IMG/VR virus record: IMGVR_UViG_3300033145_001320
Location: 17,768 to 81,767 of that record
Reading direction: 5' to 3' (one strand)
Length of the DNA stretch: 64,000 bases
DNA from: a virus
Under the pieces are notes generated by a model that saw only the letters and a program-made list of their open reading frames with translations, was not told the origin of the DNA and did no database searches. This document shows, piece after piece, positions 29,759 through 33,114 of this stretch. Position 1 is the stretch's first letter, and every line of letters begins with the position of its first letter. The translations under genes and the position numbers were made by a program.

Positions 29759-29929
29759 CTATTCATTCATATCATATTCTCCATACTTATACCTTAAAGC
29801 TTTTGGAACACTTATACCACAAATAACTGCAATCTTAATTAATACAGCTGGAGTAGTATGTCGTAAAAAATCTTCGATCCTACGCCTCAGCTTTCTGGTT
29901 TGTTTTTCAAGAAGATCAGATTCAGTCAC
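29759..29929 (-). CDS. Small basic protein with hydrophobic segment, 56 aa
   Basis: GTG start at 29929 with AGGAG 6 nt upstream; an ATG overlaps out of frame and stops at once. The N-terminal half is basic and helical (EKQTRKLRRRIEDFLRH); then a hydrophobic stretch AVLIKIAVICGISVP, which may be a short membrane segment, and an acidic tail. It follows the ARPP-1-like gene directly. The function is unknown. Confidence 0.55.
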   Translation of the reverse strand: MTESDLLEKQTRKLRRRIEDFLRHTTPAVLIKIAVICGISVPKALRYKYGEYDMNE

Positions 29930-29939
29930 ATTATACTCC

Positions 29940-30908
29940 TTATAATACTAATGATAAATAAACTGGAGTATTGTTTTGCTGAATCAAATCTCCGCCACCG
30001 CCAGATGTTGTTTCTAACATAGTTGTCCTGAGTGAGTCATCAGTACTCATTATTCCTTGAGCTTTAATATCAATTGACTCCAATATTGGAAGAATCTCTG
30101 ATCTTAAATGCTGACCAAAATCTTCTAACGTTTTCTTGACAACCTCTGCTGACGCACCTTTAGGAATCTCAGGTAATATCAATGCAGTTTCCTGAAGTTT
30201 TCCAAGCATTTTTAATCGGAGCATTTCAGCTCCATAACAACCACGAAGCAGAAGCTTCCAATAAGCTTCCCAATGTTCACTTGAGGGCATTATTTCAATA
30301 CCGACAGGAACTCCAGAAAACATAATGATGGCACCTATTTGCCCGTCAACAGGTTCAAATTCTGCTGCAAACTGTTCAAGAGCATCTTTGATTTCTGGTG
30401 TATCATAGAAATACCTAAGATGAGCAGCGTTTCTTTTTACTGAAAGAGGCAATCCACTCAACCATGTTTTGATTGATCCCCAAAGTTTGCTGTAACTATT
30501 CGCTTGTCGTAACGATGGATTTACTAATGCTTTTCGCAGGGCAATTGGTAGAATATCTTCTTCGTTTTTATCACCACGAAGATATCCTCCTTGCTCTTGT
30601 TCAATACAACATGCAGTATCAAAACTACCACTTGCATTTGCCTGAATAACTCCAGAACCTGCCATTGCATGATCCTGACCTGCTTTTCCTCGTACCATCA
30701 TATTGGATGGAACAATTGCTGGCATTCCTATATCATCATTATCAAATACCATTGTTCCATAATCCGAGGTAGTTCTGAACTTCAAATGTTCAGGTCCTGC
30801 TATTTCCCCTCTGCTATCTCCAAGTATCGGAACGACGGTCATCTCATTGACTGATTGTACGTTGCCAATTTCTATGCCAGTGAACTTCAACTTATTAAAA
30901 ATGTTCAT
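29940..30908 (-). CDS. ARPP-1-like protein, Ro operon
   Basis: The protein is 322 aa. The pattern MTVVPILGD, then VPSNMMVRGKAGQDHAMAGSG and ACCIEQEQGGYL (about 25-110), resembles the ARPP-1 type domain (segments of the type GExxxGxxQxR and CxExGRW), a family of unknown biochemistry reported in nucleotide/RNA-linked operons. The C-terminal part is helical and ends with a Gly-rich LETTSGGGGDL. It is downstream of the Ro-like gene by 14 nt and probably in the same complex or pathway. The family call is low-certainty. Confidence 0.5.
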   Translation of the reverse strand: MNIFNKLKFTGIEIGNVQSVNEMTVVPILGDSRGEIAGPEHLKFRTTSDYGTMVFDNDDIGMPAIVPSNMMVRGKAGQDHAMAGSGVIQANASGSFDTACCIEQEQGGYLRGDKNEEDILPIALRKALVNPSLRQANSYSKLWGSIKTWLSGLPLSVKRNAAHLRYFYDTPEIKDALEQFAAEFEPVDGQIGAIIMFSGVPVGIEIMPSSEHWEAYWKLLLRGCYGAEMLRLKMLGKLQETALILPEIPKGASAEVVKKTLEDFGQHLRSEILPILESIDIKAQGIMSTDDSLRTTMLETTSGGGGDLIQQNNTPVYLSLVL

Positions 30909-30922
30909 AATTTAATGACCTC

Positions 30923-32443
30923 CTATCCGAGTAATGTTTGATATTTTTGAACTAACAATGACTTGACCATATCACGATTTTGTAACATTCGATTAAAAAT
31001 AATCTCAGTTTCCAAAAATCTATAATCGGTCAATGGCATTGCATCAACCCCTTCTACCAAACTACGAGTTGTACCGCTTTTTGCATCTGCTGAAAATACT
31101 GGATTTAAATGAAGAAGGTTAAATTTCGCACCTTCACTTTTAAAGTGTTTATAGGTATGTTCAAACATACCTTTTATTTCATTTTCATATCCGTCAGACA
31201 CGACCACGATATTTTCAACCCCTGTTTGAATAGCATCAACAAGTCCGCTCCACAAATTAGTTGCACCATTTGGAACCAACACATTGACTTTGCTTTTGGT
31301 TGGAGTTTCTACAACTTTACCGCCTATGTAAAAGACATCCTTGATATTGTCCAATGCCGATACTAAACATAGTGATGTGATAAATGGATGCAATGGACGC
31401 TGTTCACTTCCTATCATTGATTTTGATGCATCAATGATAACAACACATTCTCCTATGGTGAGACGTTTCTGTCTACCGCTTACTACAACGATAGCTTCTT
31501 CTATCTCATCCATATTATCAGATTCATCGTTTAGAAGTTTATAGTAGAAAGATTTCCATAGATCATACAAGTCCTGTTTCTGATAATCGACTTTGAATGA
31601 TGTTGCTCCACTTTTCTTGGCTGCGCTTTCCAGCTGAATCTTTTCACGATCAGTCATCTTTGCAGTTGAATATATTTCTGAAATATCAATATCAACTCCA
31701 TAAGTATTACGAAATCCCATAACTGTTCGCTGAGGCATACCCTTCATATATTTTCTAAATGAAGTAGTAAGACCTGATTGCGCTGCTTGTCTTAAAGACC
31801 AATAGTTATCAATCTTTGGAAAATATGTTGAGAGTCCTTCACGACGAGGTTCTTTATCAAAGATGTGACAAAATACAGGATATGATTCCATATTGTATCT
31901 TCCAATCCACTTTGAGAAAAGTTTCATGTCACCATTCAATATTTTGAATAAGTCCTGTTTACCTAATGCATGTCGTACAAGGGTTTTCAATTTTCCTTTA
32001 TAGTTTACTGCCAGTCCATCAAGATCTCTGGAATCACGGTCGAAGATAAAACTCAATATAAGTTTTCTTGTTCTTGCATTATTAACTCTATTAAATCCTT
32101 CTGCACCTGTTAGCATTAAAAGATTTTTTAATGCTCTTGGGATACGCTCTTTTGACAGATTGTAAAGAATGACTTTCGATTCATAATCAAAGGAAAGACC
32201 ATCAACAGCAGGAAGATTACTTGAAGGTACAGGATTACCAAGTAACATATGTGTCATTGCACCTTTCGAAAAACCTGTTCCTTTAAGAAGAGTTATTAAA
32301 CAGAATAGCGTTCTATCATAATTGAATAAATCGCTCCACATTTGAACTACACGGCTAAATTGTTCGTCTGCATCCTCATAATATGCGCCTTTTGGTACGT
32401 ATTGAAGAATCCCTGAGTCAATTTTGGTTTTGCTTAAATCCAT
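30923..32443 (-). CDS. Ro60/Rsr-like RNA-binding protein (TROVE-VWA)
   Basis: The protein is 506 aa, near the size of Ro60 (538) and Deinococcus Rsr (531). Residues 1-320 are all-helical, with patterns like TROVE HEAT repeats (SKERIPRALKNLLMLTG, KGKLKTLVRHALGK). The C-terminal VWA domain has the MIDAS D338-ASKSM in VVIIDASKSM, then the Thr-containing loop (PNGATNLWSGL) and VVSDGYE. Ro proteins are rings that bind misfolded RNA and Y RNAs and guide nucleases. It has a strong site (AAGGGAGGACTAACGA), and 90-590 nt upstream lies an array of structured RNAs with tRNA-like parts, as expected for a Y-RNA locus. The N-terminal match is weaker than the VWA call. Confidence 0.65.
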   Translation of the reverse strand: MDLSKTKIDSGILQYVPKGAYYEDADEQFSRVVQMWSDLFNYDRTLFCLITLLKGTGFSKGAMTHMLLGNPVPSSNLPAVDGLSFDYESKVILYNLSKERIPRALKNLLMLTGAEGFNRVNNARTRKLILSFIFDRDSRDLDGLAVNYKGKLKTLVRHALGKQDLFKILNGDMKLFSKWIGRYNMESYPVFCHIFDKEPRREGLSTYFPKIDNYWSLRQAAQSGLTTSFRKYMKGMPQRTVMGFRNTYGVDIDISEIYSTAKMTDREKIQLESAAKKSGATSFKVDYQKQDLYDLWKSFYYKLLNDESDNMDEIEEAIVVVSGRQKRLTIGECVVIIDASKSMIGSEQRPLHPFITSLCLVSALDNIKDVFYIGGKVVETPTKSKVNVLVPNGATNLWSGLVDAIQTGVENIVVVSDGYENEIKGMFEHTYKHFKSEGAKFNLLHLNPVFSADAKSGTTRSLVEGVDAMPLTDYRFLETEIIFNRMLQNRDMVKSLLVQKYQTLLG

Positions 32444-32532
32444 TATTCGTTAGTCCTCCCTTATTAAATTTCATTCCAACGTAAGTAAAACATATCCAAT
32501 TTTTTAGTGTGAAAAATAAAAATCAATAATGC

Positions 32533-32625
32533 ACCTCAAATAATTGGGTGGACTAGTTATTAGTATAATTACAATAGTTATCTATTATAGTTACCTAACA
32601 CTAATCCACCCCAAGCTAAGGAGGT
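32533..32625 (-). ncRNA. Structured RNA unit E (hairpin)
   Basis: The outer stem ACCTC/GAGGT encloses an inner stem GGGTGGA/TCCACCC (32546-32552 with 32605-32611) and an A/T-rich loop with further self-complementarity. It directly abuts unit D and precedes the Ro-like leader. It could be part of the array or an attenuator; no tRNA-like arms. Confidence 0.5.
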
Positions 32626-32627
32626 TT

Positions 32628-32750: not shown

Positions 32751-32760
32751 AGAAAAATAG

Positions 32761-32820
32761 ATGGAGGAATATATGCAGTTGTTGATTTTAAAGTAATCTG
32801 AATCTGCATAAAGTCTCCAT
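32761..32820 (-). ncRNA. Structured RNA unit C
   Basis: The outer stem ATGGAG/CTCCAT, the conserved GACTT on the 5' side and the inner stem TATGCAG/CTGCATA repeat the plan of units A, B and D at 60 nt. The loop (25 nt) has a small GATT/AATC hairpin but no full tRNA-like arms. The sequences of both stems differ from the other units while remaining complementary. Confidence 0.55.
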
Positions 32821-32836
32821 GAAATAAACATAGTGA

Positions 32837-32908
32837 AATAGAAGCTGTAAATGTAATTGTAGTTATTTTCTCCAAATGAAAAACAGAAATTACATTAAGT
32901 CTTCTATT
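32837..32908 (-). ncRNA. Structured RNA unit B
   Basis: The outer stem AATAGAAG/CTTCTATT (8 bp, perfect) and the inner stem AATGTAATT/AATTACATT (9 bp, perfect) flank an internal loop with GACTT on one side and TTTACAG-like on the other. The terminal loop includes TTTTC-ATTTGGA-GAAAA, which resembles the D arm of units A and D (ATTTGG). It contains no anticodon or T arm. Confidence 0.6.
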
Positions 32909-32920
32909 AGAAATTTTGAA

Positions 32921-33029
32921 GCCCGAAGTGGAAATTGTATTATGTTGAGGGACTTGAACCCTATACGCTTGTTTATCATACAAGTGCTGAACCAATCAGC
33001 TATCAGAAAATACAAAAAGTCTTCTGGGC
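32921..33029 (-). ncRNA. Y-RNA-like unit A with tRNA-like domain (GAU anticodon position)
   Basis: The outer stem GCCC-A-GAAG/CTTCGGGC (8 bp with a bulged A) and inner stem TTGTATT/AATACAA enclose a tRNA-like domain: D arm GCTG-ATTGGTT-CAGC, anticodon arm CTTGT-ATGATAA-ACAAG (GAU, isoleucine type) and a T arm with TTCAAGT loop. The expected acceptor stem is absent: the 5' flank cannot pair with the 3' flank in tRNA register, whereas the longer stems can. A 21-nt segment of the 5' side (33003-33023) is identical to that of unit D (32725-32745). A tRNA finder may call it tRNA-Ile; the missing acceptor argues against a working tRNA. Confidence 0.65.
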
Positions 33030-33092
33030 ATAAATGATAATAAAAAATGATATTGGAGTTGAATCCAAAATAGTTTTTGCCGATAATCATTC

Positions 33093-33114
33093 ATTCAGTT
33101 ATTAATATATATAG
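33093..33114 (-). promoter_or_regulatory. Putative phage promoter, copy 1
   Basis: The 22-nt element (minus strand CTATATATATTAATAACTGAAT) is shared with 43297-43318 and 47051-47072 apart from three variable positions. It lies about 60 nt upstream of RNA unit A and of the Ro-like operon, in the correct orientation. The TATA-rich core resembles late-type phage promoters. Confidence 0.68.

Follow-up and report, generated by a model that had tools for sequence, protein, structure and literature searches.

A minus-strand locus of the viral record IMGVR_UViG_3300033145_001320 probably, and we say so with only fair confidence, encodes a phage Ro–Y-type ribonucleoprotein (RNP) together with ARPP-1, most likely handling or protecting tRNAs during infection. 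The stretch analyzed here (the window) comprises 64,000 nt, positions 17,768-81,767 of this record, which represents an 81.8-kb viral fragment; coordinates below are window positions unless another locus is named. In minus-strand order, the locus contains a promoter-like motif, a set of small RNA units, a Ro-like gene, an ARPP-1 gene after 14 nt, and a gene for a 56-aa protein after a further 10 nt. This order, the protein sizes (506, 322, and 56 aa), and coding gaps of 10-14 nt had been proposed in a sequence-only reading of the window and are borne out by the coordinates; the promoter copy and RNA units that it placed ahead of the Ro-like gene correspond to an exact copy of the motif, four units, and a long hairpin. 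The features, all on the minus strand, are as follows:

33099-33115, minus strand: promoter-like motif TCTATATATATTAATAA, exact match, 5′ of the RNA array
32917-33028, minus strand: RNA unit 1, Ro-type stem plus canonical-order tRNA-like domain, anticodon-position triplet GAU (Rfam, fold z, covariation)
32838-32908, minus strand: RNA unit 2, common stem plus short hairpin (fold z -3.9, unit finder)
32762-32821, minus strand: RNA unit 3, common stem plus short hairpin (fold z -4.4, unit finder)
32624-32754, minus strand: RNA unit 4, common stem plus canonical-order tRNA-like domain (ARAGORN, Rfam, fold z -4.2, covariation)
32534-32623, minus strand: long hairpin between unit 4 and the Ro-like gene (fold z -6.1, relatives)
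30923-32443, minus strand: Ro-like protein, 506 aa, predicted helical ring-type domain plus C-terminal VWA domain (AlphaFold2 model, structure search)
29940-30908, minus strand: ARPP-1 protein (PF20208, i.e., DUF6569), 322 aa (Pfam, gene order)
29759-29929, minus strand: 56-aa protein, GTG start, no family match (homologues in relatives)

We read the locus as a Ro–Y-like RNP operon because of its predicted protein fold, conserved gene order, RNA architecture, and covariation. Gene order, shared strand, spacing, and conservation suggest a single operon; terminator scans of the locus yielded nothing useful, and sigma-70-like sites at the locus showed no excess over shuffles. Chance can be excluded as the source of this arrangement because the Ro-like/ARPP-1 order is kept in approximately 100 loci, the RNA stems covary, and the 56-aa gene recurs.

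The Ro-like protein and its ARPP-1 partner

An AlphaFold2 model of the 506-aa protein, built from eight homologues, reached a predicted local distance difference test score (pLDDT) of 77.7 and a predicted template modeling score of 0.71. When this model was searched against the PDB with Foldseek, the top six matches were all Ro60/TROVE structures (E values from 2e-5 to 4e-4; next match, 1e-2), including Ro60 of Thermus phage phiLo and the Ro autoantigen; with VIA-align, ten Ro/TROVE entries, including Deinococcus Rsr (2nvo), aligned over approximately 400 residues with Z scores of 13-15.7, as compared to a Z of 11 for VWA-only chains. The predicted model thus presents the helical ring and VWA fold of Ro60/TROVE proteins. 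Among 30 homologues, the VWA metal site (DxSxS, T, D) is preserved, with D338, S340, S342, and D417 invariant and T395 present in at least 90%; an hhalign comparison with ten canonical TROVE proteins matched the VWA half at 96% (reversed control, 0.1%).

Sequence profiles miss this relationship. The Pfam TROVE profile (PF05731) gave zero matches at E values up to 10 in eight phage records, with a positive control, and searches of Pfam, NCBIfam, PHROGs, and PDB sequences with the 506-aa protein contained no Ro/TROVE match; the only Pfam signals on the protein were sub-threshold ones for VWA/CoxE. A scan of viral contigs with a single Ro-like sequence also found nothing, homologues surfacing only when alignments were used. 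The protein therefore appears to be Ro-like by predicted fold, layout, and context, as the sequence-only reading had proposed, while standing outside the TROVE family by profile. In four relatives (L005, L006, L007, and L009), the Ro-like genes encode proteins of approximately 710-725 aa with an extra N-terminal region of approximately 150 aa and a C-terminal extension; neither added region had a family match.

The likeness to Ro60/Rsr (TROVE) includes the predicted ring and VWA domain, the retained metal-site residues, RNAs beside the gene, carriage by phages, and a tRNA-cluster context; the locus differs from Ro60/Rsr in the missing TROVE profile match, in the constant pairing with ARPP-1, and in having several RNAs per locus with another stem motif. 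Among phages, members of Ro60/Rsr are known from phiLo (Ro60, PDB 9l5y) and, under the label "Ro-like RNA binding protein", from mycobacteriophages and Streptomyces phages, and TROVE has been noted in jumbo phages (PMC7824862). A canonical TROVE relative was found in 340 phage records, most of the listed ones being labeled "Ro-like RNA binding protein".

The 322-aa product was assigned to ARPP-1, in agreement with the sequence-only reading, with an E value of 1.7e-21 and 77.3 bits (cut-off, 27). To our knowledge, no nuclease activity has been described for ARPP-1. In the 462-kb phage LR756500.1, a Ro-like gene is followed by ARPP-1 as in the window, and searching more widely gave a total of 80 viral loci, some of them near-identical contigs, with neighbors scored by profile searches. 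ARPP-1 was the next same-strand gene after the Ro-like gene in 78 of these 80 loci (median gap, 11 nt), the remaining two stopping at contig ends. When bacterial genomes were searched from ARPP-1, a Ro-like gene was found upstream in 22 of 23 loci; the lone exception (L106) has only approximately 330 nt of contig upstream of ARPP-1. One such pair, on an Alkaliphilus plasmid, is annotated as "hypothetical protein" and "DUF6569 family protein". The sequence-only reading had staked its proposal on a TROVE or VWA fold in structure prediction and on a conserved neighborhood; the predicted model shows the former, and the gene order bears out the latter. The 56-aa gene has homologues of 48-56 aa directly 3′ of ARPP-1 only in the near relatives L019, L020, and L022.

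ARPP-1 belongs to the same Pfam family as the ARPP-1 of ADP-ribosylglycohydrolase (ARG) systems, whose neighbors encode ARG, phosphatases, HIRAN, WYL, and deacetylase proteins; a Ro partner is not among these (PMC9503650). In the window and LR756500.1, no ARG or rhodanese-phosphatase genes were found beside ARPP-1 among the Pfam-scanned neighbors, which represent part of the neighborhood. One proposal has ARPP working on the ribose moieties of ADP-ribose, possibly by means of a conserved cysteine (PMC9503650). A few kb from the Ro-like/ARPP-1 pair, macro-domain genes are present in L002 (12015-12593, by Pfam), L110 (7863-8456, by eye), and L121 (9158-9616, by eye), a weak hint of ADP-ribose chemistry.

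Small RNAs and their tRNA-like domains

The 677-nt RNA region showed a fold z of -6.3, with values for the individual units and the hairpin ranging from -2.1 (unit 1) to -6.1. Each unit consists of an outer stem, an internal loop with 5′-GAC(U) opposite AC-3′, and an inner stem of the type AUGUGAU/AUUACAU, beyond which some units have a short hairpin and others a tRNA-like domain. In near relatives, too, the units follow a copy of the promoter-like motif and precede the Ro-like gene, and hairpins comparable to the one at 32534-32623 were found near the same place in L019, L020, and L022. Like bacterial Y RNAs, these units lie beside a Ro-type gene and pair their 5′ and 3′ ends into a Ro-side stem interrupted by an internal loop.

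Across 18 units whose 3′ partners had been selected for pairing, 92% of cells were paired and both sides had changed in 13 of 16 pairs; slid registers were only 33-50% paired, and none of 500 shuffles reached the covariation score. Because of this selection, a second test was carried out on units picked by the 5′ motif alone, which gave a mean outer stem of 7.4, as compared to 4.8 with swapped flanks, a result seen in none of 300 null sets. Scanning of 88 distinct upstream regions identified 149 units, whereas the two controls, the opposite strand and the gene body, gave 20 each. The same RNA architecture is present at bacterial loci (e.g., L110, L118, L119, and L121).

ARAGORN called one tRNA in the window, with anticodon UUA (32654-32728, within unit 4), while Rfam gave two tRNA matches, one in unit 4 (47.7 bits) and one in unit 1 (31.3 bits, over model positions 8-63 only). 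Both units display the D–anticodon–T order and join the stem at the position of the acceptor stem. Units in L006, L007, L009, and L023 instead follow the order T arm, capped acceptor hairpin, D arm, and anticodon arm, and L006 and L007 also hold units opened within the D loop; since the automatic topology classes are rough and mislabel some units, these examples represent units read by eye only. The triplets at the anticodon position differ in nearly every unit. Recoding tRNAs for TAA had been considered and were dropped, as the anticodon triplets vary freely between units. In LR756500.1 (L002), two tRNA-like sequences (2813-2945 and 3206-3350) lie approximately 3 kb upstream of the Ro-like gene. 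In both, the 5′ acceptor strand is separated from the D arm by an insert of 70-90 nt; the inserts share the motif ACUC…AAGU…AUUACAG.

With YrlA and other bacterial Y RNAs (RF02553), these units share a Ro-side stem and a tRNA-mimicking far end. YrlA is circularly permuted relative to tRNA (PMC11472068) and, by one description, displays arms of the D, T, and acceptor type (PMC8394870). L006, L007, and L009 share the T–acceptor–D order with the Rfam model, whereas the window units run D–anticodon–T and include an anticodon arm. No unit reached the Rfam gathering score, RF02553 having no match in the window record and weak sub-threshold matches in some relatives. The canonical-order units, the added anticodon arm, and the mixed topologies within one locus look new relative to the literature short of the Chen 2014 Y-RNA survey.

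Several bacterial pairs are located inside tRNA arrays, with 11 (L100), 13 (L103), 16 (L101), 20 (L114), 22 (L115), 25 (L111), and approximately 40 (L119) tRNA genes. One array of some 40 tRNA genes, in Minicystis rosea, holds both the divergent pair and, approximately 4 kb upstream of it, a canonical TROVE gene (L119 3211-4977 and L126 1378-3075); of 29 archaeal tRNA clusters, 20 are reported to contain canonical TROVE genes (PMC6333295). The larger phage relatives contain 15-67 tRNA matches, and records of the clade closest to the window only one or two, the two in the window record being those within the Y-like units.

Proposed function and alternative explanations

We infer RNA binding, ARPP-1 chemistry, and a role in tRNA protection along the following lines. 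The divergent Ro60-like ring protein would bind the common stem of several co-encoded RNAs, as suggested by the conservation and covariation of that stem; two of these RNAs would present a tRNA-like domain at the far end and two a short hairpin. ARPP-1 may be the enzymatic partner of the ring protein, acting on ribose or ADP-ribose groups of the captured RNA. The tRNA-like arms, by mimicking tRNA, could capture damaged tRNAs or enzymes that damage or modify tRNAs, and such capture might shield translation from a host defense targeting tRNAs. The placement of related gene pairs, and of canonical TROVE genes, among tRNA genes speaks for this tRNA link. A comparable combination is found in the Salmonella rsr-yrlBA-rtcBA operon, where a Ro protein, Y RNAs, and enzyme genes occur together with a tie to damaged tRNA, the operon being induced by tRNA fragments (PMC7790460); ARPP-1 stands here where RtcB and RtcA stand there.

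Several observations weigh against this proposal. The helical, N-terminal half of the Ro-like protein did not match the ten canonical TROVE proteins by hhalign (0.3%); the fold prediction for ARPP-1 (pLDDT 43) was too poor for a structure search; the 5′-GAC/AC-3′ loop is unlike the stem of YrlA in Rfam; and ordinary tRNAs are few in some loci, including relatives of the window.

One alternative is a degradation machine resembling RYPER (Rsr–Y RNA–PNPase), in which the Ro-like ring and Y-like RNAs would hold on to a host exonuclease, for instance PNPase, and supply it with structured host or phage RNA. This is the studied role of Rsr and Y RNA in Deinococcus (PMC8394870 and PMC7790460), and the RNA layout is alike in outline, with a Ro stem and a tRNA-like effector module. 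We nevertheless regard it as unlikely, as the conserved partner is ARPP-1 rather than a nuclease and an RNase PH domain (PNPase) was found in none of 11 phage records, a search that covered phage-encoded proteins and leaves room for host PNPase. RtcB was present in one of the same 11 records, not adjacent to the Ro-like gene. The sequence-only reading had offered RNA surveillance or RNA degradation as the function of the module; the former is the more apt of the two, in a more specifically tRNA-related form, while these counts do not support degradation as such, and tRNA surveillance or protection fits the data best.

A pure decoy is a further explanation to which we give a low probability. 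Here, tRNA-like domains with varied, intact anticodon loops would absorb host anticodon nucleases or tRNA-binding proteins, with the Ro-like protein only stabilizing the RNAs. With such variable triplets, the units cannot be devoted to a single codon; one locus can hold the mimic in several topologies, and a decoy role has been suggested for YrlA (PMC7790460); however, ARPP-1 and the plain stem-loop units would be left unexplained, and nuclease binding is hypothetical. That the 506-aa protein is another helical-plus-VWA protein rather than a Ro relative seems quite improbable: the sub-threshold VWA/CoxE signals and an N-terminal half without a TROVE profile match would suit this idea, but full-length structural matches were solely to Ro60/TROVE, Ro-type RNAs adjoin the gene, and its tRNA-array context is that of canonical TROVE (PMC6333295). 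Finally, ordinary tRNA genes between hairpins, supplying tRNAs to the phage, are barely credible despite the ARAGORN and Rfam calls and the 15-67 tRNAs in other phages of the family, since the units are enclosed by covarying stems, their acceptor stems are weak or absent, their anticodons are inconsistent (UUA included), and no permuted unit of the relatives can, in its transcribed form, be a tRNA.

Beyond the tRNA-handling RNP proposed for the window, we tentatively suggest, as a conjecture that may well fail, that Ro-like proteins, ARPP-1, and multi-topology tRNA-mimicking Y RNAs form a distinct system for protecting tRNAs that is widespread in phages, tRNA arrays, and bacteria. ARPP-1 would then be a new enzyme that processes RNA ends (ribose or ADP-ribose) and is brought to them by the Ro particle, and canonical and circularly permuted mimics would act side by side.

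Genomic surroundings and significance

Genes for two large RNA polymerase subunits (34024-41138) are located directly upstream of the locus, and the motif at 33099 may be a promoter for this adjoining phage-encoded polymerase. Further copies of TCTATATATATTAATAA were found at 47057 (one mismatch) and 43303 (two mismatches), for a total of six matches as compared to 1.97 expected from shuffled sequence, and in L019, L020, and L022 the RNA arrays follow a near-identical sequence. Downstream on the same strand (25299-28007), VWA/metallopeptidase-like (DUF2201) and AAA ATPase genes form a MoxR/VWA-like pair distinct from the Ro-like gene. Elsewhere in the window, a radical SAM protein (6550-7608) and a PTPS/QueD-like protein (14899-15315) suggest 7-deazaguanine synthesis.

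Ro proteins of phages and Y RNAs that mimic tRNA both have known precedents; the divergent clade, its near-obligate ARPP-1 partner, and the set of multi-topology tRNA mimics seem new. A large Ro60-type branch would thus have gone unannotated, escaping current profiles, and ARPP-1 would gain a near-obligate partner and a testable class of substrate, RNA. The RNAs would provide a naturally occurring set of tRNA mimics, some canonical and others permuted in different ways, all built on one Ro-type stem. Phage and bacterial tRNA arrays would be tied to a dedicated RNP, and the service of Ro–Y particles to tRNA may become testable in a two-gene system.

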